From contig NZ_JARWSK010000001.1 of NCBI RefSeq assembly GCF_031081985.1, forward strand, positions 496,001 to 560,000: a DNA stretch of 64,000 nt, written 5' to 3'. A program made the position numbers and the translations under genes. The notes beneath the pieces are model-generated. The model had not been told where the DNA came from, did no database searches, and worked only from the letters and a program-made list of their open reading frames with translations. Below are positions 1-19,652 of the stretch, piece after piece (positions within the stretch are counted from its first letter, which is position 1; each line of letters begins with the position of its first letter). The stretch comes from Komagataeibacter xylinus. GTDB lineage: Bacteria > Pseudomonadota > Alphaproteobacteria > Acetobacterales > Acetobacteraceae.

Positions 1-421
1 CGTCAGCGTCGAGACCGCACAGGGTGCCGACCAGCAGCCGTGCCGTGCCGCCTTCGGGCGTCTGGGTGAGGGAGACGGTCTCGTCATCGACCGCGTAAAC
101 CGGCTTGTCGAAGTCGGCCCAGGTGGGAGCCACATCGAACGGCAGCGCCCATGTGCCCTTGCGGCAGCGCACCGTGCCGCCGCCATAGAAGGCATCGGTG
201 CCCGGCGCGCCTGCCGTATTGATCTGCTGGTGCTGGGCAATGCCCAGAATGCCGACCATGGGCGAAGGGGGTGCCGCAGCACCTGCCTGCACCAGCGTGC
301 CGTCCTGGCACACGGCGGTGATTGACCCACGGAACACGCTGCAACCGGCCGCCACGGGCTGGGCGAACTCGACCGCAACAGGCCCCATCTTGTATTTGAG
401 AACGCGATCAGCACTCAGCAT
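1..421 (-). CDS. Partial phage capsid decoration-like protein
   Basis: An open frame starts at ATG 421-419, overlaps the stop of the protease gene (TGATG) and runs without a stop to the window edge, giving at least 140 residues. It begins MLSADRVLKYKMGPVAVEF and contains short Gly/Ala-rich beta-type stretches. It directly follows a Mu I-type protease, the place of the scaffold, decoration and major head genes in Mu-like phages. I infer a small head-decoration protein of the DUF2190-like kind, but the family was not verified and the C-terminus is missing. Confidence 0.6.
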   Translation of the reverse strand, partial: MLSADRVLKYKMGPVAVEFAQPVAAGCSVFRGSITAVCQDGTLVQAGAAAPPSPMVGILGIAQHQQINTAGAPGTDAFYGGGTVRCRKGTWALPFDVAPTWADFDKPVYAVDDETVSLTQTPEGGTARLLVGTLCGLDAD

Positions 422-1407
422 CAGGCGGCTCCCTGCTTGCGGATCATGTCCTTCACCGCCTTGGGGTCATTGCCGAAGGCGGCGGACATGCTGTCCACCT
501 CACCACCACCGGCATCAGGTTCCTGCGTGTGCAGGGTGGGCGTCTTGCCCATGCGGGGCAGCCCGGTGATCAGCTCCTGCGCCAGTTCGGGGCTGGTGGA
601 ATGCAGCGTGATGAACTTGTCGCGCATCGGCTGCGTGATCACGGCACCCTCGGCGGCCGCCCTGTTCATCAGGTCTTCCACGTCACGGCGCGACAGCTGC
701 GCCGTCAGCGCCGCCACCTGTCCCTCCAGTGTGACGACCTGCGGCAGGGCGGAATGGGTGCTGGCCTCGATCCGTGCGCGCAGGCCGGTCACCAGTTCGG
801 CAGCCGGGGCCGCAGCCTCCAGCCCGAGCACCTGGGCAACCTGCGTGTGCAGCGTGATATTCTCGCGTGCTGTGGCGAGTGCGCGATTGACATCGTCGGA
901 CGACGCGGTCGGAGACAGACCGAGCGCCTGACGGAGTTCTTCAGGCGTCATGCCCGGCTCCTGACTGTGAATGTGGGTAAGGGTGAGGTTTGGCGTGTTG
1001 GTGAGCGATGCGCGCACCAGCTGCGTCACGGTGCCATCCGGTCCGACCGTGAAAGCGGGCGACAGCCCCCGATAGGCCCGGTCCTGCATCAGGGCAGCGC
1101 CCAAGCGGTTCCAGTCCACGCGGCCCCAGATGCCGTCTGCGCGGCTCTGTAGCTCGACAATGTAGCCGGCGGCCGGAGCCGGGCCGCCCATCATCATCGC
1201 GCGGTCGGTGGCGTGGTTCTCATCCAGCGGCAGCTTGCCGTCAGCAGCCTGCATGCTGTGCAGGATCAGGGCTTTCGGGTCTGCCACATGATACGGCCCG
1301 CGCCCGTCAGTTCCCTTGAAGGTTCCGGCGGGCAGCAGGTGCAGCCATTCGGGTAGTTTGTCCTTGGCGTCTTCCGGCAGTGCGGTATGGCAATGGAGCA
1401 GTGTCAT
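421..1407 (-). CDS. Mu gpI-like prohead protease/scaffold
   Basis: About 328 residues. The N-terminal half resembles Mu-type phage proteases (LPEWLHLLPAGTFKGTDGRG at the start, then FNHATDRA-like and GVDWN-like segments). The C-terminal half is an Ala/Gln-rich helical region like the overlapping scaffold (Z) of Mu gene I. It should process the prohead during capsid assembly. A GTG at 1416 is three codons further upstream in frame, but I prefer ATG 1407: it lies 45.5 bases from the centre of the upstream dyad, exactly as the lysozyme ATG does from its copy. No Shine-Dalgarno sequence is visible. The stop overlaps the next start. Confidence 0.85.
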   Translation of the reverse strand: MTLLHCHTALPEDAKDKLPEWLHLLPAGTFKGTDGRGPYHVADPKALILHSMQAADGKLPLDENHATDRAMMMGGPAPAAGYIVELQSRADGIWGRVDWNRLGAALMQDRAYRGLSPAFTVGPDGTVTQLVRASLTNTPNLTLTHIHSQEPGMTPEELRQALGLSPTASSDDVNRALATARENITLHTQVAQVLGLEAAAPAAELVTGLRARIEASTHSALPQVVTLEGQVAALTAQLSRRDVEDLMNRAAAEGAVITQPMRDKFITLHSTSPELAQELITGLPRMGKTPTLHTQEPDAGGGEVDSMSAAFGNDPKAVKDMIRKQGAA

Positions 1408-1438
1408 CCCCGGCACGATGCCGGATCAGGGCTGCCGG

Positions 1439-1465
1439 TTTCAGGGAGAACGATTTCCCCCTAAC
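1439..1465 (-). promoter_or_regulatory. Putative late-promoter operator (Mu PI equivalent)
   Basis: A 27-bp sequence with an imperfect dyad (GGGAGAA at 1444-1450, 4-base loop, TTCCCCC at 1455-1461) lies just upstream of the protease gene. It matches 26 of 27 bases with a second copy before the lysozyme gene. Mu has C-activated promoters at both positions. I infer a binding site for the Mor-like activator encoded at 10149-10535. The -10 region here is poor, as expected for an activator-dependent promoter. Confidence 0.65.
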
Positions 1466-1562
1466 CGGCCGGGCGGGGCCTTCCCGATTTTTACGCCGCA
1501 GGAGGGCCGCAGGGTCATCATGCGCATGATCGGACGCGAGCGCGCCAAAAACGCCTGTGCCC

Positions 1563-1591
1563 CCCTCTTAAACCCTCTTACGGCCCTCTTA
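1563..1591. repeat. Three CCCTCTTA direct repeats at helical spacing
   Basis: CCCTCTTA occurs at 1563-1570, 1573-1580 and 1584-1591, spaced 10 and 11 bases, so all three face the same side of the helix. They lie in the gap between gpG and the PI-like operator. A protein-binding or transcript-end role is possible; none is shown. Confidence 0.4.
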
Positions 1592-1615
1592 AAAATCAGC
1601 GGGGCCTTGCAGATG

Positions 1616-2137
1616 TCATCCGCGCATGGCGCGGGCGAGAAATGCCTCCAGTTCGCCCACGACCAGGTCGCGCTCCTTCGGCCCGAAACCAAGGTAGGGC
1701 CGTGCGGGTATCTTCACGCTGGCAAGGTGCCACAACCTGCCGCCCATCATGAACGACAGCTGGCCTGCCTCACGCGGCACGATGGTCGCCCCGCTCTGGT
1801 GGACCCCGGCATATTTCAGGTCAGAACCCACCCATGCCTCCTGATCTGTAGCCCCGCCACGGATCGAACTGGCCAGCCCGTAGCTGAAGCCACCCCGGCC
1901 GATCAGGATGGATGGCCCTTCCTTGTCCTGGGCATAGAGGGGGTTGAGCGGGGCGTAAGAGTCCCATTTGACGCCCTGTGGGTCTTCCCCGTTGCGGAAG
2001 CGGTCGCGCACAAGGTCAACCATGCCATCGGCCACGGCGGCAAGGATCGGCCCCGGCCTGCGACCGATGGCGGCAATGGCCGAGAGCGCGCCCTGCATGC
2101 GTTCGGAATCAAATTCGATGCTGAACATGGATGACAT
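1616..2137 (-). CDS. Mu gpG-like virion morphogenesis protein
   Basis: 173 residues, matching the phage virion morphogenesis (tail S / Mu gpG) family in length and pattern. An N-terminal helix region is followed by WDSYAPLNPLYAQDKEG, then a GRGGFSYGLASSI segment, and PARPYLGFGPKERD near the C-terminus, the typical 'RPFLGLS' region. It sits after gpF and before the protease, as in Mu. The role is in head/tail assembly. The start ATG 2137 is followed by a second possible Met at residue 4. Confidence 0.85.
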   Translation of the reverse strand: MSSMFSIEFDSERMQGALSAIAAIGRRPGPILAAVADGMVDLVRDRFRNGEDPQGVKWDSYAPLNPLYAQDKEGPSILIGRGGFSYGLASSIRGGATDQEAWVGSDLKYAGVHQSGATIVPREAGQLSFMMGGRLWHLASVKIPARPYLGFGPKERDLVVGELEAFLARAMRG

Positions 2138-2235
2138 AGTGGAAATACTCGCTGGTCTGTCTTATAATGCCGATGCGACGCGCCGCGACACGGTGCTATT
2201 CTCCCAGCCGTAGGACCGCCCTTGTGGCGGGATCG

Positions 2236-3522
2236 CTATGGGGGGTTGTCGGGAGGCCCCTCCGGCGCGTCGTCTTCCAGATCAGCCAGACTGCCCTTGA
2301 CGAACGTCAGCTTCGAGGCTGCGGCCCGTGCCTTGCCGGGTTCCGTGCGATGGAAGGATTGCAGCCAGATTTCCTTCCCGTCTCCCGTCACCTTGATCAC
2401 TGCACGGTAAAGTCGCCCCGCCCATGAGAACATCATGAGGTGCCGCGTGCGACTGCGGGCAATGACGACCGGATGGGCCAGAACCTCTGGCACCGCACGG
2501 TAATCTGCCTCGGTCAGGTCGGGATGATTCCTGATCTGCTTTTCCATGGTGGCGCCAGACAGCAGCACGCTGCTGGTTGTGGTGCCCAGCTCCCTGCTAA
2601 TTTCAGCAGATACCGTGCCCGCTTCCACCGTGCCGACCGGCTTGTGCAGCAGCTGCACGACATTGCGCTGCTGGACCTTCTGGCGCGCGACAGCCGCGAT
2701 GGATGTGGTGGTGGCCGTGGTTTTTTCGGCCGGTGCAACCGGAGCACGGGCAGGTCGGTGCGCCGCTCCCGCATCCTGCGCGGGCGGCAGCACCGGGCCA
2801 AAGCGTTCGCCCGGCAGGCCCACCTGTGCCGCCTGCCCACGCGCCCATGCCTGTCCGGGGTTGTAGGCGAAGCCGGGGTCGATGCCTTTGGGCACGTCCA
2901 CCACTTCGCCCGTCCGCCTGTTCCGCCAGGGCCGTGTCTCGACAGGCGGGGCTTCCGACACCGTCCAGCCGTTCTGGCGCAGCATCCGCTCGGACACCAG
3001 CCGCACGGTGCAGTGGCAGTGCCAGCCATTGGGCGGGAAATGCGTGTTCCACCACGGGTCATCCGCCCGCAGCACCTTGCCGCTCCACGCCACATGCTCT
3101 GCGCGCGGGTGCTGGCAGGCGTTATGCTCGTACATCCAGTACGGGAACATCTCGCGCGCTTCGGGCGTGGTCATGCGCCGGTAGCGCCCGGCGCTGTTCG
3201 CCATGGCGATGTTGGTGGAATAGATGATTTCCGACCGCCAGCCCGGCGTGCCGGTATGCTGCCAGCCGTAACGGGCCACGATGCCGTCAAAGTCCTGGCG
3301 GAAGTCCTTCAGCGTGGACCCGCCCGATATGGCCCTGTCCACTGCCTTGCGGAAATCCGCCAGCATCGCATCAGATGCCGCACCGGCCACGGTAAAGGCG
3401 CGGGCGTGGGTCTCCTGCCACAGCTCGTCCCACGTGGCGGATGGCACGTTGGTCTTCTGGCGGAAGTATTGCAGGGCCTCGCTGGGCGGCAGGGCTGCCG
3501 CCTGGGCGATGGTGTCAGCCAT
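2236..3522 (-). CDS. Mu gpF-like head morphogenesis protein with C-terminal PBECR-type nuclease domain
   Basis: 428 residues. Residues about 1-240 are the Mu F / SPP1 gp7 minor head domain: TNIAMANSAGRYRRM, then PNGWHCHCTVRLVSERML with its typical Cys/His cluster. After a Pro/Ala linker (about 255-300), residues about 330-420 look like a phage-barnase-EndoU-ColicinE5/D-RelE (PBECR2) nuclease fold: KQIRNHPDLTEADYRAVPEVL, then YRAVIKVTGDGKEIWLQSF and a basic helix. Such fusions put a nuclease in the virion head, perhaps injected with the DNA. The gene overlaps portal by 8 bases. The nuclease assignment is by motif only. Confidence 0.85.
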   Translation of the reverse strand: MADTIAQAAALPPSEALQYFRQKTNVPSATWDELWQETHARAFTVAGAASDAMLADFRKAVDRAISGGSTLKDFRQDFDGIVARYGWQHTGTPGWRSEIIYSTNIAMANSAGRYRRMTTPEAREMFPYWMYEHNACQHPRAEHVAWSGKVLRADDPWWNTHFPPNGWHCHCTVRLVSERMLRQNGWTVSEAPPVETRPWRNRRTGEVVDVPKGIDPGFAYNPGQAWARGQAAQVGLPGERFGPVLPPAQDAGAAHRPARAPVAPAEKTTATTTSIAAVARQKVQQRNVVQLLHKPVGTVEAGTVSAEISRELGTTTSSVLLSGATMEKQIRNHPDLTEADYRAVPEVLAHPVVIARSRTRHLMMFSWAGRLYRAVIKVTGDGKEIWLQSFHRTEPGKARAAASKLTFVKGSLADLEDDAPEGPPDNPP

Positions 3523-5245
3523 TATGCTGCCCGGCCTGGACCTGCTCCATCATGGCCGCATCGCCCGCAAGGTTCGCCACCAGCATGGCCTGTGCCATGG
3601 CATTGGCAAACTCGGCATGCGGCAGGTCCAGTTTTTCAAGCCGGGCGCGGAAGTCCGGCAGGTCATGGGCCTGCATCATGGCCTGACGCACCGGCTCGCT
3701 CATCTGGCCCAGTGCGCGGGCGGCATGCTGTGCCGTTGCATCCGTCATGATGCTGATGATGTCCGCCCCGCCATCCGCCTTCGCCACATGCTGGAGCACG
3801 CGGCCAAGCTGCGTGTGCAGGGTCAGCGTGGCGGACTGGGGCACGGCCGCCGGATCGGGCGGCGTGTGGATGGTCGCCCCCGGCGCATGGCCCGGCAAGG
3901 TCTCGGGCGGCTGGGTGCGCGCGGGCAGTTCGTGGGGTGGTGAGGCGACCGGCGGTGGCGCGATCACGCCGCCCACCACCTCATCACCCGGTTCCGGCTC
4001 GGACAGGTTCAGGCGCTGGCGCAGTTCGGTTGCCTTCGCCTTCAGTCCCTGCGGCCCCAGCCACTGCAATGCCTGCGTGACTTCCTGATTGCTGGCCTCA
4101 TCCGGCCGGCCGATGGAAATGACGGGATAATTCTGCTGTGGCCCGAAGGTGTAGGCGACCATCGGCATGATGACCTGCTCGTTGCACGTCACCCCCAGCA
4201 GGGAGCAGTCCGCGCGCTCGATGTCATCTTGCACCATGCGATGGATCGCGCCCGAGGCATGGGCACCCGCCTTGCTGTCGGTCGTGCCGGTCTGGCCCAG
4301 CACCAGCTTGCTGATCTGTTCGTCCAGATAGCGCAGGCGCTGTTCATGCAGCTCGGCCGATCCGCTGAACTTCGGCTCGATGAACTCGATGCCCATGCCC
4401 ACAGGAATGATGCATGCCAGGCCGCCCGCGATGTCGTTCACCGCGCTCCACAGCACATCCTTGTCTTCCTCGCTGGCGCCGGGTCCATACCGGCCCACGC
4501 GCATGGGCAGCCCATAGTTCTGCACGAAGATCGCCCAGTCACGCATGGTGAACATCTTGAACATGACCAGGAACGCCAGCGTGCGCATCAGGCCGGACTC
4601 AATGGTCAGGCCCGACCAGCTGGGGTGGCGATGGATCACGAATTTTTCCGCCGGGATATTGACCAGCCCGGCCAGCGGCGGCGCGTCCGATACCGCAGAC
4701 GTGGCGGGCGGGCCTTCCAGCGAGCGCATGAGGATCTGTTCACCGTCGCGGTAATCGACCTCGAACCACTTGCGGGGCCTGAAATTCAGGGCGCGCGGGC
4801 GGTTGTTGCCCGGCTCCAGCTGCCAGTCGATTTCATGCACTGAAAAGCCGCTGGTGATGGCATCGAGCATGTCATACAGGCTGCGGGCAAGGATGCCCTT
4901 GCGCAGCCAGTCGCGCACGAACTGCCCGGCCGCCTTTTCGGCCGGGCTGTCACCGCCGTCATCAACCGTGATGGGGTTCTGGGCCACGACGCGCTTGCGG
5001 GTGTTCAGCACCGACAGCACATGGGGATCGCGGCGTTCCAGTTCCTTGGACAGGATCGCCCAGTAGTAGCTGTTCCCCTGATCAGCCTCGCGGATCATCA
5101 TGCCCATGCGCGCCGGGTCCATGCCCGGCAGCATGGACAGCGGGGTAACGGCGGGGCGCATGCCCACGATATCGGCCGTGGCGACCGGGGTAGTCAGTGT
5201 CTTGGCGCGCAGGGGATTGCCCCACTGGTCGATCAGTCCGGCCAT
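3515..5245 (-). CDS. Portal protein (Mu gp29-like, DUF935)
   Basis: 576 residues. Typical DUF935 features are the N-terminal GLIDQWGNPL, ILSKELERRDPHVLSVLNTRK, the IDWQLEPGNNRP region and LGQTGTTDSKAGAHASGAIHR. It forms the dodecameric DNA channel at the head vertex and serves as the docking site for the terminase. The C-terminal 170 residues are Pro/Ala-rich and then helical. It abuts the ACP-like gene (overlap of one base) and overlaps gpF, consistent with one late head operon. Confidence 0.93.
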   Translation of the reverse strand: MAGLIDQWGNPLRAKTLTTPVATADIVGMRPAVTPLSMLPGMDPARMGMMIREADQGNSYYWAILSKELERRDPHVLSVLNTRKRVVAQNPITVDDGGDSPAEKAAGQFVRDWLRKGILARSLYDMLDAITSGFSVHEIDWQLEPGNNRPRALNFRPRKWFEVDYRDGEQILMRSLEGPPATSAVSDAPPLAGLVNIPAEKFVIHRHPSWSGLTIESGLMRTLAFLVMFKMFTMRDWAIFVQNYGLPMRVGRYGPGASEEDKDVLWSAVNDIAGGLACIIPVGMGIEFIEPKFSGSAELHEQRLRYLDEQISKLVLGQTGTTDSKAGAHASGAIHRMVQDDIERADCSLLGVTCNEQVIMPMVAYTFGPQQNYPVISIGRPDEASNQEVTQALQWLGPQGLKAKATELRQRLNLSEPEPGDEVVGGVIAPPPVASPPHELPARTQPPETLPGHAPGATIHTPPDPAAVPQSATLTLHTQLGRVLQHVAKADGGADIISIMTDATAQHAARALGQMSEPVRQAMMQAHDLPDFRARLEKLDLPHAEFANAMAQAMLVANLAGDAAMMEQVQAGQHNG

Positions 5246-5490
5246 CAGGGCACATCCCCATACATCACGGCGGTACGGCAGGCGGCGACAATGTCGGCCA
5301 CCGTGCGCCAGTCGTCTTCGCCCGCCACGCGGGCATCGGTCGCCTTTTCACACGCGACCACGATCTCGATCCGGTCGATCCTGTCCAGGCACAGGTCATC
5401 CTCCAGCCGCATGTTCGGCTGGACTGCCCTGCGGGGGATTGCGCCCACTTCCGCCACGATCCGCCGCACCTTGCGCGAAATGCGGCTCAT
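5245..5490 (-). CDS. Acyl-carrier-protein-like small phage protein lacking the carrier serine
   Basis: 81 residues. From residue 5 it aligns by eye with acyl carrier proteins: VRRIVAEVGAIPRRAV, then LEDDLCLDRIDRIEIVVACE and WRTVADIVAAC, matching ACP helix I, the DSLDxVEL helix II and the TV..I helix IV. The serine that carries phosphopantetheine (DSLD) is Arg here (DRID), so it should not be modified. Function unknown: a fold reused in the virion or a decoy are both possible. The start ATG overlaps the upstream stop (ATGA) and the stop touches portal. Confidence 0.65.
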   Translation of the reverse strand: MSRISRKVRRIVAEVGAIPRRAVQPNMRLEDDLCLDRIDRIEIVVACEKATDARVAGEDDWRTVADIVAACRTAVMYGDVP

Positions 5491-5657
5491 GACCGGCGCG
5501 CGCCTTTTTTCTTCTTCCGGCGGCCGGTCTTTTTCTTGAACAGGATGCGCGGGTCTGCCGGATTTGGCTGGGGGTAGTGCGCAGGTTCACGCCTAACCAT
5601 GGACAGCATCAAGCCGTAGTGCCGCGCACTCATGCTCTGAATGATGCCGAAGATCAT
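5487..5657 (-). CDS. Small basic hypothetical phage protein
   Basis: 56 residues, starting MIFGIIQSMSARHYGLM and ending in a run of Lys/Arg. The start (ATG 5657-5655) overlaps the stop of the outer-spanin gene and its stop overlaps the next start, both as ATGA, so translation is probably coupled. The basic tail suggests DNA or envelope contact. No family was recognised. An in-frame start seven codons upstream is less likely because of the overlap. Confidence 0.5.
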   Translation of the reverse strand: MIFGIIQSMSARHYGLMLSMVRREPAHYPQPNPADPRILFKKKTGRRKKKKGARRS

Positions 5658-5989
5658 GACTGCGCCGCCTTGAGGCACACCCGGTCCGCATCACGCATGC
5701 CCATGTAATCGCCCACCACACGGTGCGTGACCGGCGTATCGGTATGCGCGTCCAGTTCGGTCCTGAGCGCCGTCTGATCGGCCGCTGAGTAGGTCTTGAG
5801 CGGCAGGCAGACCGGACGCACGGGCGGCGTGGCGCAGCCGGACAGGCACAGCACGGCGGCAGCGGTCAGGGCCAGCGCCAGCAGGGCTGCGGCAATGCGC
5901 GGGCCACGCGGTGGCTCGGGGGCCTGCGGGCAGCTTACGTCACGGTGGAACAGGTCCGTGACGGAGCGTAGGGAAAGCCAGTTCATCAC
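5654..5989 (-). CDS. Outer-membrane spanin-like lipoprotein (Rz1-like)
   Basis: 111 residues with a long hydrophobic stretch (about 32-50) ending in the lipobox LSGC, then a Pro-rich segment (CATPPVRPVCLPLKTYS) and the pattern DYMGMRDADRVCL common in Rz1/o-spanins. It overlaps the upstream inner-spanin-like gene by 4 bases. With that partner it should fuse inner and outer membranes at lysis. It is unusually far from the lysozyme gene (4 kb). Confidence 0.65.
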   Translation of the reverse strand: MMNWLSLRSVTDLFHRDVSCPQAPEPPRGPRIAAALLALALTAAAVLCLSGCATPPVRPVCLPLKTYSAADQTALRTELDAHTDTPVTHRVVGDYMGMRDADRVCLKAAQS

Positions 5990-6216
5990 AGGCCCCCCGC
6001 TGCCAGGCGCGCATCAATGGCGGCATCGGTTGCCGGAGCATCAGCCTCGGCCTGCGCCATGGCGGTTTCCGTCCTGGTCACGGCATTGGCCTCAGCCACC
6101 TGCGTGCTGTCATCCTTGGCGGTCTGCGCCTTGGCCGACAGGCGGCTGACATAGTAGGCACCGCCCAGCAGGCCACCAAAAACAAGCACGGTTGCAATCG
6201 GGATGATGTAATCCAT
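5986..6216 (-). CDS. Inner-membrane spanin-like protein (Rz-like)
   Basis: 76 residues: an N-terminal membrane segment (about 4-25, IIPIATVLVFGGLLGGAYYV), then a charged Ala-rich coil with the ending DAAIDARLAAGGL seen in small Rz-type proteins of alphaproteobacterial phages. Paired with the lipoprotein gene just downstream it makes a two-component spanin. It abuts the large terminase gene. Confidence 0.6.
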   Translation of the reverse strand: MDYIIPIATVLVFGGLLGGAYYVSRLSAKAQTAKDDSTQVAEANAVTRTETAMAQAEADAPATDAAIDARLAAGGL

Positions 6217-7790
6217 CAGTATAGTTTTCCTCTGATACCAAAATTGTCGGGGTTGATGCCGGAGCGCTCGGCCGCGATTTCCTGTTCAATCGACCAGCCG
6301 CCCGCACTGGACGGCGCGCCACCGGCTGAAAGGGATGTGTCAGCCGAGCGGTATTCGTAGATTTCCGGGTCGGACCTGCTGGCGGCATAGGCCAGCGCAC
6401 CGGCTATGGCGGCATCGCCATGGCGTTTCGCGCCGCCCTTCTGGGTGACACGCTGTTCCGGCACGCGGATCACGCCGCGCACGATCTTCAGAGACCGGAT
6501 ATCGTCCTGCACGCCGCTATCGGCTGGCACGGTGATGTTGCCATCCTCGAACGCCGCCTTGAACGGCGGCATGTTGTCCCGATACCAGGCTTCGGACAGC
6601 ATGACCGCCTCGATCCGGCTGCCGTATTTCTGGACGGTTACTTCGGCCAGCCACTGGCCATTGCCGCGCGCATCCAGCTTGCCCGCACGGAAGCAGGGCA
6701 GCCGGTCAATGATGTACCAGAGGATCTGGCGCTGCTGGTCGAACGGGATGTTGTGCAGTTCGACAATGAACGGCGTGCGGCGCAGCAGGGAGCGTTCAAT
6801 GGCAAGTGGCCAGATCACGCTAAGGTCGCCATTGCGGGCAAAGTCCTGCCCCAGCGCATGGGGAGCCTTCGGGTCCAGTTCTTCCAGCAACGGCAGCAGT
6901 TCGGTTTCACAGAACCGCAGTGCCTCGCTTTTACGCACATGCTCGTCCAGCAGTGTGAATTCCGTCGTCTGCGCCCAGCGGACAACCGGAGTGCCCCGAA
7001 CCTGCCGCGCCTCGATCAGCGCCAGCGGGATCGCGCTGCCGGTGCTGGGTGATGGAATGCAGAACAGTTCCTCGTCCGCCGCATCGCCATAGGCATCAAT
7101 GATTTCCTGACGCCATGTCGCTTCTTTCGCGGCGGTCCATTCCTCGCCCTTGCGTTCGCATATCTTGCGGTAAAGGCCAGCCTTCAGCGCATCGTCGAAC
7201 GTGACGCGCAGCAGCTTGTATGGCTTGCGCCCGGCGCGGATGTCCTGCACCAGCTTGTTGAACGGGTTGGTGTCGCCATCATGCGTGCTGATGACCAGGA
7301 CGCGGCCACCCCACATCAGCAGGGCCAGCGCCGCTTTCAGCAGTTCTTCCAGATCATCGTGGAAGGCCGCTTCATCAATGATGACCAGCCCCTGCATGCC
7401 GCGCAGGGCGCGCGGGACGGACGGCAGGGCCAGTATCTTGAACCCGGATGCCAGATCAATGCGGAAGACTTTGCAGTCCTTGTCCGGGTTGTCAGGATCG
7501 CGGAATACGCTTTCCTGAACCGTGGCGACAATACCGTCGATCTGTTTCAGGTGTTCGGCGCAGTAATCAATGAACTCCCGCGCCATTTCCAGATTATAGC
7601 CGACATAGAACACGTCCATGCCGCCAGCATCCGCGCCTGCTGCCGCCGTAAGGGCCGCGCGATAGGATGCTGCCCAGGAGTAACCGATACGGCGCGATTT
7701 TTCGGCAACCGTGACGGCCTCGATAGCCGTGGTGGCCATCAGTTCCGTCTGGTAGGACAGGAACAGGGCGGAGAATTCCTCCTTGTTCAT
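6216..7790 (-). CDS. Terminase large subunit (Mu gp28-like)
   Basis: 524 residues. The ATPase part shows the Mu-type motif KSRRIGYSW (31-39) in place of a classical Walker A, and GLVIIDEAAFH (about 134-144) as Walker B. The nuclease part starts near GQDFARNGDLSVIW (about 313). It cuts and packages phage DNA into the prohead. The gene overlaps the small-subunit gene by 4 bases. Length and motifs are as expected, with no sign of damage. Confidence 0.93.
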   Translation of the reverse strand: MNKEEFSALFLSYQTELMATTAIEAVTVAEKSRRIGYSWAASYRAALTAAAGADAGGMDVFYVGYNLEMAREFIDYCAEHLKQIDGIVATVQESVFRDPDNPDKDCKVFRIDLASGFKILALPSVPRALRGMQGLVIIDEAAFHDDLEELLKAALALLMWGGRVLVISTHDGDTNPFNKLVQDIRAGRKPYKLLRVTFDDALKAGLYRKICERKGEEWTAAKEATWRQEIIDAYGDAADEELFCIPSPSTGSAIPLALIEARQVRGTPVVRWAQTTEFTLLDEHVRKSEALRFCETELLPLLEELDPKAPHALGQDFARNGDLSVIWPLAIERSLLRRTPFIVELHNIPFDQQRQILWYIIDRLPCFRAGKLDARGNGQWLAEVTVQKYGSRIEAVMLSEAWYRDNMPPFKAAFEDGNITVPADSGVQDDIRSLKIVRGVIRVPEQRVTQKGGAKRHGDAAIAGALAYAASRSDPEIYEYRSADTSLSAGGAPSSAGGWSIEQEIAAERSGINPDNFGIRGKLY

Positions 7791-8362
7791 TTCTTGACCC
7801 CGAACATCCCGGCGGATAGCGCTGCGACCTGTTCAGCCGTCAGGCCCTGTTTTTTGCCTTCACGACGGATGTTGGTTTCGGCCTCGCGGCGCAGGCGCGC
7901 TTCCGTGCGTTCCTCGATCTGCGCCACGAAATCGGCGTCCGTCTTGCTCGCCTTGGTCAGGTGATCCAGCGCCTTTGACAGCAGCATCAGCCCTTCCGGG
8001 TTGCCCTGAAGGGCTGCCAGACCATCGGAATTGATCTTTCCGTCTTCATCCTCGCCCGCCATGAACAGGTCGAGAATGGCCGTGTGCATCATCTCCACGT
8101 TCGCGCGCAGCATACGCGATACCGATGCATCACCCATCTGACGCGCCAGCGCCTCGGCCACCATGCGCGAACGGCGGGCCTTCTGCCCCAGCTTGTCCAG
8201 CTTCTGGCAGTGACGGCCCATTGCCGACCGGCTGAAATCCTTGCCGTAGCCTTCCCGCAGGAGGGCAAGGATTTCATCAATCGTCATGCCGTGCGCGCGG
8301 GCTTTCGCGATTTCCTCGCGGATTTCCTCGTCTTCGCGCTCGATGGATGAAGGGCGCGCCAT
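7787..8362 (-). CDS. Terminase small subunit (Mu gp27-like, DUF3486)
   Basis: 191 residues. It begins MARPSSIEREDEEIREEIAK and carries an N-terminal helix-turn-helix (MTIDEILALLREGYGKDFSRSAMGRH), then a long helical part (MLRANVEMMHTAILDLF), the layout of DUF3486 proteins. It recognises the DNA for packaging and works with the large subunit just downstream, whose start overlaps its stop. Confidence 0.88.
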   Translation of the reverse strand: MARPSSIEREDEEIREEIAKARAHGMTIDEILALLREGYGKDFSRSAMGRHCQKLDKLGQKARRSRMVAEALARQMGDASVSRMLRANVEMMHTAILDLFMAGEDEDGKINSDGLAALQGNPEGLMLLSKALDHLTKASKTDADFVAQIEERTEARLRREAETNIRREGKKQGLTAEQVAALSAGMFGVKK

Positions 8363-8365
8363 CGG

Positions 8366-8674
8366 TCAGAACATCAGCCCATGGGCAACGCCCGCAATCT
8401 TTTGCAGGCCATCTGCCGCGCGGACACCGGCATCGGTCAGGTGGGCGAGCCACATATCGGTGCTGGGCGTGCGGGGCATCTTCTCGATGCGCACGCATCC
8501 GGCGTGCTCAAGGAATGCGAGGTCCGCGCGCATGGTGTCGAAATCGGTGGCGCGACCGGATGCCACGACGACGCGCAGCAGCACTTCCTCGTTCAGCATG
8601 CGGTTTCCCATCTCGTTGATGGATTTCAGGACACGCAGGCGGCGGTCTTCAATAATGGCGGCAGCGGCGCTCAT
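8366..8674 (-). CDS. Mu gp26-like small protein, winged-helix type
   Basis: 102 residues lying between the DUF2730 and small terminase genes, as gp26 does in Mu. The sequence RLRVLKSINEMGNRMLNEEVLLRVV followed by DFDTMRADLAFLEHAGCVRIE has the pattern of a winged helix-turn-helix. The role is unknown, possibly DNA binding during packaging. Confidence 0.7.
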   Translation of the reverse strand: MSAAAAIIEDRRLRVLKSINEMGNRMLNEEVLLRVVVASGRATDFDTMRADLAFLEHAGCVRIEKMPRTPSTDMWLAHLTDAGVRAADGLQKIAGVAHGLMF

Positions 8675-8676
8675 GA

Positions 8677-9000
8677 TTACTTCCCGGTGGCGGACGCGAT
8701 TGTTCCGCGAATGATTGTGTGGAGCAGTTCGTTATTGTTCTTGCCGTCCTTGCGTATCTCGCTCAGTTCGGCGTGGATGCTGGTCATGCTGGCGCGGATC
8801 ACGTTCACGTCCGACGCCAGCCCCTCATGCTTCACCGCCAGTGCCTCGTGCCGGATGACCAGACTGTCATGCCGGGCGGCAAGGTTGCGCTGGCGGCTGA
8901 CCAGGAGGGCAAAGCCCAGCACGATGATGACCCCGACCAGCGCCAGACAGAGCAGCATCAGCGGCGACATGACCGGCGCGGCCGGGGTCATCATCAGCAC
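8677..9000 (-). CDS. DUF2730-like membrane/coiled-coil protein (Mu gp25-like)
   Basis: 107 residues: one membrane helix (about 12-36, MLLCLALVGVIIVLGFALLV), then a heptad-like coil with repeated RHDSLVIRHEALAVKHEGLASDV. This is the DUF2730 architecture found beside terminase genes in Mu-like phages. The function is not known; a part in lysis or envelope contact is possible. Start ATG 9000, with a second Met at residue 3. Confidence 0.75.
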   Translation of the reverse strand: MLMMTPAAPVMSPLMLLCLALVGVIIVLGFALLVSRQRNLAARHDSLVIRHEALAVKHEGLASDVNVIRASMTSIHAELSEIRKDGKNNNELLHTIIRGTIASATGK

Positions 9001-9002
9001 GG

Positions 9003-9389
9003 TCAGGCGGTCGCGGCTGCGGGGGTTGCAGTCGCGGCGGAAGCCGTGGCCGTGGTGCTGTCCGGCGTGACATAGATGCCCGCCAGATCGGCAATCGCCG
9101 CCTGCACGTGGGTCACCACGCTATCCTCGGTCGGAACCGTGAAGCCGAGGTTGCGCAGCATGGACACGGTGCCTGCAATGGCTTCCTGCGCCAGCGGGTT
9201 GGCCGCATCCCACGTGTCGAACAGGGACTGAAGGTGGGTCACACCCCCATCCACCTTGGTCAGGGCGGATTTCACGGCCGTCTGGGCCGTGGCGTTGTAG
9301 GTGGCAAGGGTGCCACCGGTTGCCGTTGCAATAACGGTCCCCACCAGCGGGAACACGGTCGCAAGAAGGCTTTTCCAGTTGACTGCCAT
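9003..9389 (-). CDS. Hypothetical phage protein with hydrophobic N-terminus (holin candidate)
   Basis: 128 residues. The first 30 residues (WKSLLATVFPLVGTVIATATGG) are hydrophobic, the middle is helical, and the last 20 are Thr/Ala-rich and probably disordered. It sits directly after the lysozyme gene, where a holin is often found, but only one membrane segment is clear, so a holin role is a guess. No family recognised. Confidence 0.6.
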   Translation of the reverse strand: MAVNWKSLLATVFPLVGTVIATATGGTLATYNATAQTAVKSALTKVDGGVTHLQSLFDTWDAANPLAQEAIAGTVSMLRNLGFTVPTEDSVVTHVQAAIADLAGIYVTPDSTTATASAATATPAAATA

Positions 9390-9464
9390 CAGGCTCTCTC
9401 TGGTTGTGGCGCTGCGTCCTCGCCATGATGAAAACGGCCATGCGCGCCCGCATGACCGTATGGG

Positions 9465-10085
9465 TCATGCGGCGGCCGGAGCCACTGCATCGATCAGGGC
9501 AAGGGCGGCGCTGGTGCGCCACTCAAGGCGTCTGAGCCAGCCCGCGCCAAACGCGTCAAAACCTTCAAAAGAGCGATAGGCTGTCTCTTGCAGGGTATTG
9601 AGCCTGCGCACGATGGCGCGGGCAGCGTTGGCCTCGCTGCTGTGCGGGGGGAACGTCAGTTCCTTCTCCAGCGCATCCAGCGTGACGGGGCCGATATCGC
9701 CATCCACCTGCCTGCCGGTCAGGCCGATGGCCTGCTGCAACAGCCAGATGGAACGGCCGTTGCCGCTGTTGAAACCGAAGTCGAACACCATCTGGTCCAC
9801 GCCTGCGGGCAGGGCCGCGCAGTCCATGGCGTTCCAGTAATAGGCGCGGGCAATCGCGGCAAAGGTGGGCACGTCAATGGCCTGCATCACGGCCCTGGTC
9901 ACCCGCGCGGGGTTGCCGCCCAGCCAGCGCACCATTGTGGGCGCGGAAATGCCGCGCATGGTGCCTACGAGAAAGCCGTGGCCGACTGCACCGCCGGTCC
10001 AGTTGCCCCCGTCATCCCGTAGGCACTGGTACAGACCCTCCTGTCCAGCGGTTCCGTTTATGATTGTGTGGAAGTTGGTCTGCAT
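9465..10085 (-). CDS. Phage lysozyme, glycoside hydrolase family 108 type
   Basis: 206 residues. The N-terminal GH108 pattern is visible: GQEGLYQCLRDDGGNWTGG with the catalytic Glu at about 15, then VGTMRGIS. The C-terminal part (VDQMVFDFGFNSGNGRSIWLLQQAIG and VDGDIGPVTLDAL) is the peptidoglycan-binding segment usually joined to it. It degrades peptidoglycan for release. No signal peptide, so a holin is needed. It is preceded by the dyad operator at 10117-10143 and no other gene lies between it and mor. Confidence 0.9.
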   Translation of the reverse strand: MQTNFHTIINGTAGQEGLYQCLRDDGGNWTGGAVGHGFLVGTMRGISAPTMVRWLGGNPARVTRAVMQAIDVPTFAAIARAYYWNAMDCAALPAGVDQMVFDFGFNSGNGRSIWLLQQAIGLTGRQVDGDIGPVTLDALEKELTFPPHSSEANAARAIVRRLNTLQETAYRSFEGFDAFGAGWLRRLEWRTSAALALIDAVAPAAA

Positions 10086-10116
10086 GTCCGCAACATTAAG
10101 CGGACGGGAAACAGCA

Positions 10117-10143
10117 TTTCAGGGAGAAGGATTTCCCCCTAAC
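10117..10143 (-). promoter_or_regulatory. Putative late-promoter operator (Mu Plys equivalent)
   Basis: Second copy of the 27-bp sequence: GGGAGAA at 10122-10128, 4-base loop, TTCCCCC at 10133-10139. Its centre is 45.5 bases from the lysozyme ATG, the same distance as at the protease gene. A CTTAAT hexamer ends 10 bases before the ATG on the minus strand and could be a -10 box, which would give an almost leaderless mRNA. Confidence 0.7.
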
Positions 10144-10148
10144 GCGCT

Positions 10149-10535
10149 TCAGAACATGGAGAGCTGGCTGGGGTCGTTGCGCCGGGTCCGCGTGCGTGGC
10201 TGCGGTGCCGGGTCATCATGCGTGGCCATGATCTGGACCACGCGCCTGCGCGACACACCGGCGCGGCGTGCGCTGTCATCAAGGGACAGGCCCATCTGGC
10301 GGTAGCGCCGCACGCGCCAGTGGCGGCAGACGGGCACATCGTAATACGTGCCGCCGTGCTGTTCCTGTAGGGCTGTGGCCACTTCGGGGCCGAATGTCTG
10401 CTCCAGCCTGCTGCCTGCCGTCTTGCATGGTACGCTCAGGCGTGACCCACCCGCAGTCTCTATGAACTGGAGCGCCGCGTCTTCGCCTATGGCGGCGACA
10501 AGCCAGTCGATCTGTGCGGGTGGGTGAATGGTCAT
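10149..10535 (-). CDS. mor: Mor-like transcriptional activator
   Basis: 128 residues with the Mor/C layout: an N-terminal dimerisation part (IDWLVAAIGEDAALQFIETAGG), GGTYYDVPVCRHWRVRRYRQM and a C-terminal helix-turn-helix LSLDDSARRAGVSRRRVVQIM. In Mu, Mor activates the middle promoter and its homologue C activates the late ones. No second family member is seen in this window, so this protein may do both jobs. It lies directly upstream of the Plys-like operator and overlaps the preceding small gene by 4 bases. Confidence 0.88.
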   Translation of the reverse strand: MTIHPPAQIDWLVAAIGEDAALQFIETAGGSRLSVPCKTAGSRLEQTFGPEVATALQEQHGGTYYDVPVCRHWRVRRYRQMGLSLDDSARRAGVSRRRVVQIMATHDDPAPQPRTRTRRNDPSQLSMF

Positions 10536-11074: not shown

Positions 11075-11236
11075 TTAATAGAACGCCCGCAAGCCGAATA
11101 GGAGAACCATCGCAATGATGCTCACCAATACTGCGCACATCATCAGCGTAAAATTGCGACTGAGAAGCGCACATACTGTGAAAGTCACTGCAACGGTTGA
11201 TATCGACGCGGGCAGCCAAGGATGTAGCTTCATCAT
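11075..11236 (-). CDS. Small two-helix membrane protein
   Basis: 53 residues, MMKLHPWLPASISTVAV at the start, with two hydrophobic helices (about 8-26 and 30-49). ATG 11236 overlaps the gemA stop as ATGA, which supports it as a real, translationally coupled gene. It is the last gene before the strong terminator at 11029-11053. No family recognised; a holin-like role is possible. Confidence 0.6.
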   Translation of the reverse strand: MMKLHPWLPASISTVAVTFTVCALLSRNFTLMMCAVLVSIIAMVLLFGLRAFY

Positions 11237-11691
11237 TTCAAACCTTTCTCAAGGCGCGATTTCCAGCGCTTCAGTCCTTCAATCACCTTCCGTCCCTGCA
11301 CGCCGTCCAGGAATTCGGGTGCGGTGATGCCAGCGGGATGGTCTGCCGTCATGGTCTGGCGCTGGACGTAGGCGCGCAGGGCTTCACGGGTGCCCCCGCT
11401 GGTCAGCATCGGGGCCATGTCCTTCCAGATGGCATAGATCATGCGCACATGCGGCTTGTCGCTGCTGGACAGGCTGCCTTTCTTCGGCTTCCAGCCCAGC
11501 GTGCGGAAATGGGCCAGAACCTTCTCCAGCGCGGGTGTGGTGGCGTCCTTCGCGCTGGTGTGGCCGGTGATGCGGTGCAGGATGTCGCGGTATGCTTCAT
11601 CCGGCAGCGCCAGTTCCTTGCGGGCGATGTGCAGCTTGGCGTAGATCGCGCCGCGTGCCGGGTTGGCCCTGCGGGCCTGTGTGGTGGTCAT
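11233..11691 (-). CDS. gemA: GemA regulatory protein (Mu gp16-like, DUF1018)
   Basis: 152 residues. Typical GemA core: RGAIYAKLHIARKELALPDEAYRDILHRITGHTSA, then LEKVLAHFRTLGWKP and the MIYAIWKDM segment. In Mu, GemA modulates host gene expression and DNA gyrase/replication functions. It overlaps both neighbours by 4 bases within the early operon. Confidence 0.9.
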   Translation of the reverse strand: MTTTQARRANPARGAIYAKLHIARKELALPDEAYRDILHRITGHTSAKDATTPALEKVLAHFRTLGWKPKKGSLSSSDKPHVRMIYAIWKDMAPMLTSGGTREALRAYVQRQTMTADHPAGITAPEFLDGVQGRKVIEGLKRWKSRLEKGLK

Positions 11692-17135: not shown

Positions 17136-17590
17136 CAGTCACCCCCACGCATAGCCTGACGGCGCAGGGCATTTTCACGACGTGCCAGCTCTTTCTTGTG
17201 CTCACTAACCGCGGCAAGCTCGATCATAGGCAGGTAGCGGCGCTCGATCACAGCCCAGCCGAGCGGCTCCGCCATGAACTCCAGCAGCCTGCGGTCCCGC
17301 GTAACAGATAGAAGGGCATCGAATCTCGGCACGCTGATCTGATGCCCTTCACGCTGCACGCTGGCGTACGCATTGATCATGTTTATCGACACCGGCTTTT
17401 CCAGCAGGTCGGACATCGCCGCCGCAATCTGCTCACGCGACCGCCCGCAGGTGTCCAGCGAGACGGAAATGGCGCGCGACAGGCGCGATGTGAACTGGTT
17501 GGCGCGGATCAGGCGCGGGTCAAACCGCACCACCGGATTGGGCGGAACCCAGTCCAGCAGGGAAAGCTGTTCAGGTGCATTCCGGGTCAT
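17132..17590 (-). CDS. Hypothetical phage protein between ParB-like and transposase genes
   Basis: 152 residues. It starts MTRNAPEQLSLLDWVPPNP and has helical segments (SREQIAAAMSDLLEKPVSINMINAYAS) resembling a helix-turn-helix, then a basic C-terminus. It overlaps both neighbours by 4 bases, so it is translated together with the ParB-like protein and the transposase and may help regulate transposition. No family recognised. Confidence 0.65.
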   Translation of the reverse strand: MTRNAPEQLSLLDWVPPNPVVRFDPRLIRANQFTSRLSRAISVSLDTCGRSREQIAAAMSDLLEKPVSINMINAYASVQREGHQISVPRFDALLSVTRDRRLLEFMAEPLGWAVIERRYLPMIELAAVSEHKKELARRENALRRQAMRGGDW

Positions 17591-18399
17591 GCCGCTGCCC
17601 TTTCTTCTGCCTGATAGCCGGGAAGATGTGGCGCGAAGAACTCAATGATCTGCTTGCGCTCCGCAGGGGATGCCTTGCGCCAGATGGCAGCCGTCTTTTC
17701 CAGTGCACCTGGCGGCGTAGGCTTCGGGCGACCAGCAAGCTGGCGCACGATCTCGGACACCTTCCGCACGCCCGGCCATTGGGCCACGAAATCCGCGATC
17801 TGGCGCTGCATGTCCGGCTCCTGCTTGGCCAGTTCATCAAGCTGTGCGCCGCTATCGGCCAGCCAGGTGCCCGTGATTTTTTCGCGGACATCCGGCATGA
17901 TGTGAGTGTAACGGGCAATGGACCGGCGGATGGTGCTGGCATCAATGCCCAGCTTTTCACCCGTGCTTTTAGTGAAGGAAGGGATCAAGTGTGCAAGGTT
18001 GCACTCTTGATCTGACTTCCGGTCGCCACCGTGCTTCGTTTCCGGGTGCAGTTCCTCATAAACCGCCTTGCGTTCGGCCAGAAACGTAGCCTTGTCCAAC
18101 GGGCTCAACTCCCGGCGGCACAGGTTTTCGTCAATTTCCAGCAGCTTCGCTTCCAGATCGGAAGCCTTCACGATGATGGCAGCGGCATGGTCGATGCCCG
18201 CCAGCTTCATCGCAGCCAGACGGTGGCCGCCAGAAATCAGCGCATACTTGCCAGACCGGCCAAGCTTGCGGACCTCAATGGGTGCTCGCTGGCCGTTCTC
18301 CTGCATGGAAGCGGCAATCAGCGCTGCCCAGTCTGGGTCAACCGCCCGCAGGCGCTCGCCAACCTCGATATCGGCTACAGGGATTTGTTCGATGTTCAT
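17587..18399 (-). CDS. ParB/Spo0J-like N-terminal-domain protein
   Basis: 270 residues. The ParB N-terminal fold is clear: IPVADIEVGERLRAVDPDWAALIAAS, QRAPIEVRK, and SGGHRLAAMKLAG, which holds the GxxR signature (GGHR) of the CTP/nucleotide pocket. The rest is helical, with a helix-turn-helix-like KLGIDASTIRRSIARY. No parA gene lies beside it. Plausible roles are DNA-end binding or control of early transcription. The ends overlap ner and the next gene by 4 bases each. Confidence 0.8.
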   Translation of the reverse strand: MNIEQIPVADIEVGERLRAVDPDWAALIAASMQENGQRAPIEVRKLGRSGKYALISGGHRLAAMKLAGIDHAAAIIVKASDLEAKLLEIDENLCRRELSPLDKATFLAERKAVYEELHPETKHGGDRKSDQECNLAHLIPSFTKSTGEKLGIDASTIRRSIARYTHIMPDVREKITGTWLADSGAQLDELAKQEPDMQRQIADFVAQWPGVRKVSEIVRQLAGRPKPTPPGALEKTAAIWRKASPAERKQIIEFFAPHLPGYQAEERAAA

Positions 18400-18701: not shown

Positions 18702-18896
18702 ATATATAGCTCCTGAGATTCGGGGCGGTGCCAGCCGCCCTTTTCTTCAACCCCGTTTCAGCGACTTTACGCCGCTGTTGTTCGTCGCGAGGTGTGCCGT
18801 GAGAATATCTAATCCGCAGTGCAGGGCAAGCGCAAAAGTGCGCATCCGACTTCTTATCTGTGGAAATCATGTTGATAAGTGCGGTTACGCATTAGT
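18702..18896. promoter_or_regulatory. Repressor/ner divergent control region
   Basis: Noncoding region between ner (leftward) and the repressor gene (rightward). It holds an inverted repeat CTTATC (18853-18858) / GATAAG (18874-18879) just before the repressor start, a candidate operator. Divergent early and repressor promoters must lie here by analogy with Mu, but I cannot assign the hexamers with confidence. Confidence 0.5.
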
Positions 18897-19652
18897 ATGA
18901 CTGAAGAAATCTCAGGGAAAGACGTTCGGAAGCGTGACATCCAAGTTCCGGACCCGAACTTGGATGCGATCCATCTCGTGGAGCGCCTACGCAGTGCCAT
19001 CAAAAGTGCTGGTGGGAATAAGCACGTATCCGCACTATCTGGCGTTCCTAACGGCTCGATTAATCACTATCTCACGGGCCGATCTATGTCGGCAGAAGCC
19101 GCATCCCGCATAGCCCGTGCATGTGGGGTATCCCTAGACTGGCTTCTTCTCGGTGATGAAGTCTCGCATGCGCGTTCAGAAGTGAGTATCTGCGGTCTAG
19201 AACCATCAGATGATTTGACTCACATCGACTATTATAATGTCGCCGCGTCCGCAGGCTTTGGCCTGTGCGCTGATGAGGCGGAAAAGCCCGAGAAAGTCGC
19301 TATTTCTAAGCGTTTCTTGCGGCAGGACTTGGGGCTTGAGCCCAACCGCGCCATCATGCTGGAAACCCGTGGCGACAGCATGGAGCCCGCCCTACGGGCT
19401 GGGGACCTCCTCGTGGTCGATACCCGCCAGCAGCATATCCTTGATGGCGTCCATGTCCTGGTCGTAAACGGCGGTCTGCTCGTCAAGCGCGTGTCAGCCG
19501 AACCAGACGGCAAGGTCCGCATAGCCTCGGATAACCCGCTTTATCCGCCATTTTTCACGGATATATCCCGCGTGCGCTGGGGGAAACCCGATGGCGACAA
19601 CACAATCACCGTAATCGGCCGCGTAGCCTACAGACTGCAGGCGATGTCGTGA
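18897..19652 (+). CDS. Phage repressor, HTH plus S24 peptidase (LexA/CI-like)
   Basis: 251 residues from ATG 18897. An N-terminal helix-turn-helix (HVSALSGVPNGSINHYLTGRSMS) is followed by an S24 autopeptidase domain with the catalytic Ser in RGDSMEPALRAGDLLVVD (about 162) and the Lys in GGLLVKRV (about 197). It should hold the lysogen and be cleaved on SOS induction, unlike the classical Mu c repressor. The gene reads away from ner. Confidence 0.92.
   Translation: MTEEISGKDVRKRDIQVPDPNLDAIHLVERLRSAIKSAGGNKHVSALSGVPNGSINHYLTGRSMSAEAASRIARACGVSLDWLLLGDEVSHARSEVSICGLEPSDDLTHIDYYNVAASAGFGLCADEAEKPEKVAISKRFLRQDLGLEPNRAIMLETRGDSMEPALRAGDLLVVDTRQQHILDGVHVLVVNGGLLVKRVSAEPDGKVRIASDNPLYPPFFTDISRVRWGKPDGDNTITVIGRVAYRLQAMS

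Follow-up and report, generated by a model that had tools for sequence, protein, structure and literature searches.

The window analyzed here, a stretch of 64,000 nucleotides (nt) from Komagataeibacter xylinus, carries part of a Mu-like prophage that extends to the left beyond it. Three copies of a 27-bp dyad in this prophage, located before the lysozyme gene (lys), the protease I gene and a baseplate-wedge gene, very probably represent C-type late promoters served by a single Mor/C activator, with predicted leaderless mRNAs. The sites, their number, their fixed geometry, the -10-like hexamer, the low frequency of Shine–Dalgarno (SD) sequences and the joint change of operator and activator are all present in the DNA. 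From these features, binding of Mor/C to the dyads, 5' ends at the AUG and the use of leaderless translation are predicted. In the proposed mechanism, a dimeric Mor/C activator (10149-10535) would bind the dyads at Plys, PI and the promoter of the wedge gene (in the gp46 position). Seated on a dyad that overlaps a weak -35 element, it would activate the host sigma-70 RNA polymerase at a weak -10 element. Since the -10 element ends 7–8 nt before the AUG, transcription would begin at the A of the AUG or at most one or two bases away from it, and ribosomes would translate each late operon's first gene from a leaderless mRNA. The activator gene has no site of its own and would presumably be read from the early transcript.

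A preliminary description of the window, made from the sequence alone, reported the 27-bp sequence before the protease and lysozyme genes, identical at 26 of 27 positions, and placed both dyad centers 45.5 bases from the respective ATG. The positions, the one-base difference and the spacing are all confirmed, and the Pfam and PHROG identities of the two genes agree with the PI and Plys assignments. On the minus strand, which is the phage coding strand, the 27-mers read GTTAGGGGGAAATC[G/C]TTCTCCCTGAAA. The promoter elements and the genes directly concerned are as follows.

1439..1465, minus strand: PI late operator, GTTAGGGGGAAATCGTTCTCCCTGAAA, dyad center 1452.5
1439-1444, minus strand: weak -35-like hexamer of PI, CTGAAA, at the right end of the operator
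1415..1420, minus strand: -10-like hexamer of PI, CATCGT, 18 nt from the -35-like hexamer and 7 nt to the AUG
421..1407, minus strand: protease I (Pfam Mu-like_Pro, E 8e-41), AUG at 1407, predicted leaderless
10117..10143, minus strand: Plys late operator, GTTAGGGGGAAATCCTTCTCCCTGAAA, dyad center 10130.5
10117-10122, minus strand: weak -35-like hexamer of Plys, at the right end of the operator
10093..10098, minus strand: -10-like hexamer of Plys, TAATGT, 7 nt to the AUG
9465..10085, minus strand: lysozyme (Glyco_hydro_108, E 8e-12), AUG at 10085, predicted leaderless
10149..10535, minus strand: Mor/C-type activator, 128 residues (PHROG 836, E 8e-22), with a C-terminal helix-turn-helix (HTH) and the terminal sequence QLSMF

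Within the window, the pattern GGGAGAA-N4-TTCCCCC occurs without mismatch only at 1444-1461 and 10122-10139. With up to three mismatches, nine matches are found where shuffles average 5.5; the looser matches in the window are therefore noise. In the complete 3.53 Mb genome, the 27-mer is present in three copies at up to three mismatches. All three copies lie inside the one Mu-like prophage, before lys, protease I and the wedge gene, and the operator pattern read backwards gave no copy in the genome at the same threshold. The third copy is located outside the window (contig C9, 485383-485409), with its dyad again 45.5 bases from the wedge-gene ATG. The preliminary description had envisaged a minimal late switch; the late sites at PI and Plys stand, and the third operator copy shows that the switch is not confined to two sites. 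Extending the search to the host family, as had also been proposed, revealed relatives without the window 27-mer. Among 397 Acetobacteraceae genomes, including that of the window, the pattern was found only in the window's own genome and once in one congener. This lone copy in the congener (G135; L015 / L066:117-143) is identical to the operator core over 24 bp; none of 15 proteins of the window phage matched within the surrounding 40 kb (tblastn), and its ATG is preceded by GAGG and opens a reading frame of only 11 codons. A 15-mer scan of viral contigs returned 32 stretches, which were set aside as chance matches are expected at such a length in a large collection.

The start codons of the three genes differ in how firmly they are fixed. 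The lysozyme frame has no further in-frame ATG, GTG or TTG upstream of the AUG at 10085. The protease I frame has an in-frame GTG at 1416, 9 nt upstream of the ATG at 1407, and the wedge gene (PHROG 180, called gp46-type from its position) has further ATGs (L004 9363 and 9360) whose distances to the dyad are 33.5 and 36.5 bases, which leaves these two starts uncertain from the window phage alone. Only one in-frame start exists for the wedge gene in each of the three closest prophages examined, and it aligns with the ATG at 45.5 bases.

Relatives show that the operator changes while its place is kept. A Mor/C match at E 1e-4 was found in 39 of the 397 family genomes; pattern-based scans gave few loci, and whole-genome searches gave more. 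The closest relatives share 48–53% identity in Mor/C and about 42–71% in the late proteins compared, and each has a dyad of its own, unlike that of the window phage, in the same place ahead of these three genes. In K. rhaeticus, the lys operator reads ACAGGGGAACAACACCCCCCTGAA and the wedge-gene operator ACAGGGGAAGAACCTCCCCCTGAA; one further relative (G066) has GGTGAACAGTGGCACCCTGAA before all three genes. The mean operator likeness is 0.75 within a phage and 0.44 between phages (highest between-phage value, 0.79). Between-phage operator similarity tracks Mor/C identity (r 0.61, Mantel p 0.0002), a correlation to which shared descent may contribute and which counts less firmly for the proposed activator on that account. 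In one genome (G281, contig C1; L059-L062), two Mu-like prophages have identical upstream regions for protease and wedge genes and differ in their lys operators and Mor/C; the lys dyad of the second prophage is less like its other two dyads. Across the phage group, the late regulon would be one in which promoter geometry is fixed to the start codon while the operator letters drift, and this geometry would make leaderless late-gene expression predictable from DNA. The approximately 20 activator/operator sets may also serve for reading the Mor/C recognition code.

Promoter anatomy was assessed in a panel of 56 sites. Of the 47 regions in which Mor/C was matched, 21 contributed to it, and all sites have an ATG, as the construction of the panel demanded. 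A hexamer with A2 and T6 ends 7 or 8 nt upstream of the AUG at 49 of the 56 sites, compared with 28 of 395 control genes, which are operon-like open reading frames (ORFs) of the panel prophages. An SD core is found at a single panel site, compared with 190 of the 395 controls. When one prophage per 85% Mor/C cluster is retained (19 prophages), the corresponding counts are 45/52 for the hexamer and 1/52 for SD. The -35-like signal is weak (best mean match, 2.4 of 6); it coincides in part with the dyad's right end and lies 18 nt from the -10 hexamer. Immediately after the AUG, G is underrepresented (0.149 vs 0.247). In sigma-70 promoters, the last T of the -10 element occupies position -7, so +1 would coincide with the AUG or precede it by one or two bases. 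Gluconobacter oxydans, for which mRNA leaders have been mapped, belongs to the same family as the host. In that species, 62 of the 1344 mRNAs mapped have leaders no longer than 3 nt (PMC5756330). Leaderless genes are described as marked by a TANNNT signal located about 12 bp upstream of the start codon (PMC3160421), and the panel displays such a signal together with low SD and ATG starts in the proportions given above. The preliminary description had suggested that late transcripts may be leaderless; as a prediction, this is supported by the -10-like hexamer 7–8 nt before the AUG, the low SD frequency and a distance kept despite operator change. No paper on leaderless Mu-like late promoters was found in the open literature searched, as judged by titles and the beginnings of abstracts, which is not proof of absence from print.

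A position-blind search followed by a distance check provides a less circular test than the 56-site panel. For each of the 26 prophages that carry two or more of the three homologues, the best shared 24-mer was sought from -150 to +45 around the homologous start, ignoring position, with 20 or 40 shuffles each. The shared motif exceeds every shuffle in 20 of the 26 prophages, and for 17 of the 20 the genes can be matched within 2 nt in how far an in-frame ATG lies from the motif center, compared with 0.5% under random placement. On the opposite side, the remaining three (G348, G049 and G392) each have one or more genes that lack an in-frame ATG within range, six of the 26 do not exceed all shuffles, and the 20 motif prophages include near relatives (G281a and G281b, which share protease and wedge regions, and G131a and G054). 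Among the six below threshold, v3300028491, G131b and G201 still show the expected motif in the expected place, v2895588199 and G372 show it in another analysis, and G127a shows nothing.

Further observations weigh against the promoter assignment or its leaderless character. The panel was chosen by geometry with an ATG required, and four of its 56 sites stand before genes without an assigned identity; the -10 signature is missing at seven. The dyads are imperfect, with a mean best arm match of 5.3 of 8 against 4.6 at random places, and symmetry alone centers 39 of the 56 at 44–46.5 in a scan limited to 40.5–50. The strict SD pattern detects SD in just 4 of 15 starts of other phages and calls Mu lys and Mu I SD-less too, so that SD absence alone is weak evidence and the -10 position weighs more. 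Outside the panel, the expected lys start has an SD in 4 of 10 prophages (G207a, G207b, G183 and G208) and a -10-like hexamer in 3 of 10; for protease, an ATG and a -10-like hexamer at the same distance are found in 8 of 18, with several start options tried. The SD starts outside the panel and the strictness of the SD pattern speak for a rival reading, in which the late operators are as proposed but a short leader of the usual kind precedes the coding sequence, as it does in Mu. The mapped Mu late starts lie upstream of lys and I, about 20–25 nt before the AUG as reckoned from oligonucleotides with 20 nt of downstream sequence (PMC4461284), and the Mu record marks ribosome-binding sites. A short leader would leave unexplained the contrast with the control genes, both in the hexamer 7–8 nt before the AUG and in SD frequency, and it gives no obvious reason for an AUG distance held within 2 nt; it is accordingly considered unlikely. 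In Pelagibaca phage P1, a CCCCGAAACTGC-TCCCCGGGCA dyad is seen by eye before the amidase gene and I (L056:12123-12192 and L056:20042-20111), with SD at the amidase and none at I. Given the SD at some lys starts outside the panel and at the Pelagibaca amidase, leaderlessness as predicted here is a feature of a phage group and not of all Mor/C phages.

Alternatively, the dyads might act in RNA, as hairpins forming a terminator or a translational operator upstream of the late genes. The window dyads could indeed pair around a 4-nt loop, and one directly follows the mor/C stop codon. However, no T run follows the dyads in the window, the paired bases and possible loops vary among relatives while the position relative to the AUG and the -10 hexamer is constant, and the operators change together with an HTH protein. 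A role as RNA hairpins is therefore highly improbable, and we favor DNA sites for the Mor/C activator.

The identity of this activator was assessed by sequence and structure comparisons. The preliminary description noted a Mor-like gene adjoining the lysozyme copy and saw only one such gene. The PHROG match bears out the first point and a genome-wide search the second: the next PHROG 836 match is at E 0.003, and no separate Mor gene was found in the genome besides the one clear Mor/C gene. Aligned against 12 Mu-type Mor/C proteins with hhalign, the window protein gives a probability of 96.6 and E 6.7e-10, and Pfam Mor is matched by 21 of 27 chosen relatives at E<=0.01. The AlphaFold model has a predicted local distance difference test (pLDDT) score of 90.7 and is confident except for about the last 20 residues; it shows a helical N-terminal part with short strands and a C-terminal HTH, and HTH families are matched in alignment A2. 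Some comparisons argue against the assignment. The Pfam Mor score of the window protein, 19.1, is below the curated cut-off of 24.9, and direct BLASTP to Mu C is weak (E 0.009). Foldseek returned no match to the model at E<=0.001 and no Mor structure among the 50 of 288 matches listed, and none of the 15 matches in a profile search of PDB sequences was named Mor. On the profile evidence, the window activator belongs to the Mor/C family. It looks like a late activator only, the counterpart of Mu C, since it lies directly before lys, the place of C in Mu, and no second activator step is visible. Two adjacent Mor/C-like matches lie near a protease I match in each of two other genomes (G375, L111; G316, L118), and most other regions have a single one.

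The preliminary description had also proposed that one Mor/C protein serves both the middle and the late stage, an idea that accords with the single clear Mor/C gene in the genome. This would call for an operator before the activator gene. The 20 panel prophages with at least two sites were scanned with a matrix built from each prophage's own sites, with about 3 kb upstream of mor/C covered for most relatives. Because the matrix is trained on the sites, the score gap rather than the score is the informative part. The sites rank at the top and are followed by a drop, the narrowest being in G281a (32.7–34.2 for three sites vs 23.6). Nothing comparable is found within 1.2 kb before mor/C in the 20 prophages, where the highest score is 14.1 and the sites score at least 28.5. 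In the window prophage, the best score within this 1.2 kb is 6.3 and the next best elsewhere is 12.5, compared with 41.6–42.3 for the three sites. With no comparable operator before the activator gene, the two-stage proposal is not borne out and appears very improbable. Least credible of all is that the dyads are operators of a phage repressor or a host regulator: repressors bind dyads too, and a CI/S24-type repressor is encoded at 18879-19652, but no copy lies near it, the three copies stand before late genes only, and the dyads change jointly with Mor/C.

The surrounding genes follow a Mu-like plan, listed here along the direction of transcription and with small genes omitted. The early region runs from the transposase through the DNA transposition protein, DUF3164, gemA and two small genes to Mor/C. 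The first operator is followed by lys, the terminase large subunit, the portal and the minor head protein. The second is followed by protease I, the major head protein, the head-tail adaptor, the tail sheath, the tape measure, the baseplate hub and the gene in the gp45 position. The third precedes the wedge gene, further baseplate genes, the tail fibre and a terminal Dam-like methyltransferase. At up to three mismatches, no late operator is found before the Dam-like gene and no fourth site in the genome. The early region also has a ParB-like gene, and one is annotated in Pelagibaca phage P1 too.

11233..11691, minus strand: gemA (Pfam GemA, E 3e-25), with two small genes between it and Mor/C
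17587-18399: ParB-like gene, early region, immediately ahead of the transposase side
L004:3502-4299: Dam-like adenine methyltransferase at the far prophage end, where Mu has mom

The C-terminal tail of the activator raises a further, more tentative possibility. The tails read QLSMF in the window phage, QLNLF in K. rhaeticus and QLSLF, QLDLF or QPDLF in others; in Mu, QPDLF is found close to the end of C, and QPSLL forms the end of Mor (L157:764-1186; L162:482-871). The bacterial clamp-binding consensus is described as a C-terminal QL(S/D)LF (PMC9690074). The N-terminus of Mu C starts with QHDLF, and similar N-termini are seen in several relatives. A loose clamp motif is present in 33 of 43 and 15 of 21 Mor/C tails. 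Shuffling these tails yields 2.8 and 1.7, and among control ORFs the motif is seen in 46 of 1391 tails. The strict pattern matches 16/53 tails, its first relaxation 24/53 and the loose form 48/64; as the pattern was written after about 20 tails had been viewed and was later loosened, these counts are partly fitted. The tail Q is found in 36 rows out of 43 and, in a set of 21 other-phage rows (four near Mu C), in 20; its invariance in alignment A2 partly reflects selection, since 27 sequences were included and seven Q-less ones left out. Against a clamp-binding role, a fresh sample of 28 alphaproteobacterial homologues, including two same-tail copies from one genome, gives 7/28 for the loose and 4/28 for the relaxed pattern; several others in it end in a similar xxLF without Q. 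Mu late genes are reported to be expressed after the onset of phage replication (PMC4461284). It is conceivable, though we would not expect it on balance, that Mor/C activators, including Mu C and Mor, carry a C-terminal peptide that binds the host clamp DnaN, so that late promoters fire on replicating DNA; in this group of phages of acetic-acid bacteria, one activator and three leaderless late mRNAs would then form one minimal switch. Such a tail, if real, would provide a molecular reason why Mu-like late genes wait for replication. Within the open literature covered, queries on the sliding clamp and late transcription returned T4 and clamp papers only, and queries on the clamp and Mu C returned a review; this is not proof of absence.

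The closest known system is the set of C-activated late promoters of Mu (Plys, PI, PP and Pmom). In both phages, a Mor/C-family activator lies directly before lys, and promoters stand before lys and I. The third promoters differ in place: PP lies inside gene N upstream of P in Mu, whereas that of the window phage precedes the wedge gene. The P and mom promoters of Mu have no counterparts among the window phage sites, and neither a fourth site nor a separate Mor was found in the latter. Mu encodes Mor farther upstream, next to gemA, and C before lys. A Mor/C gene is preceded by gemA in Mu and in Pseudomonas phage D3112, as in the window phage; in D3112, the annotated late activator directly follows gemA, and SD-like sequences are seen at orf20 and the following endolysin but not at orf33 (I). 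The activator dyad in Mu is described at or upstream of -35, as here (PMC4461284, PMC4287176), and the Mor dyad at Pm is given as centered at -43.5 (PMC4287176). Taking the AUG as +1 puts the centers of the window dyads at -45.5, near the Pm dyad, and the activators are related; Pm, however, drives the C operon, whereas the window phage has no site before its activator gene. For leaderless expression, the parallel is Thermus phage phiYS40, most of whose middle and late mRNAs are leaderless (PMC3594737). That phage is reported to alter IF2/IF3 levels, whereas in the window phage leaderlessness would be built into activator-dependent sigma-70-type promoters. For the coupling to replication, the parallel is T4, in which late transcription, with gp33 and gp55, relies on the phage's own sliding clamp gp45 and on a sigma factor of phage origin (PMC9690074). 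If the QLSMF tail binds the clamp, late genes here would be tied to replication in the same way, with the difference that the host clamp and a site-specific DNA-binding activator would be employed. If true, this would represent a host-clamp counterpart of T4 late transcription, in which replication, promoter firing and leaderless translation are joined.

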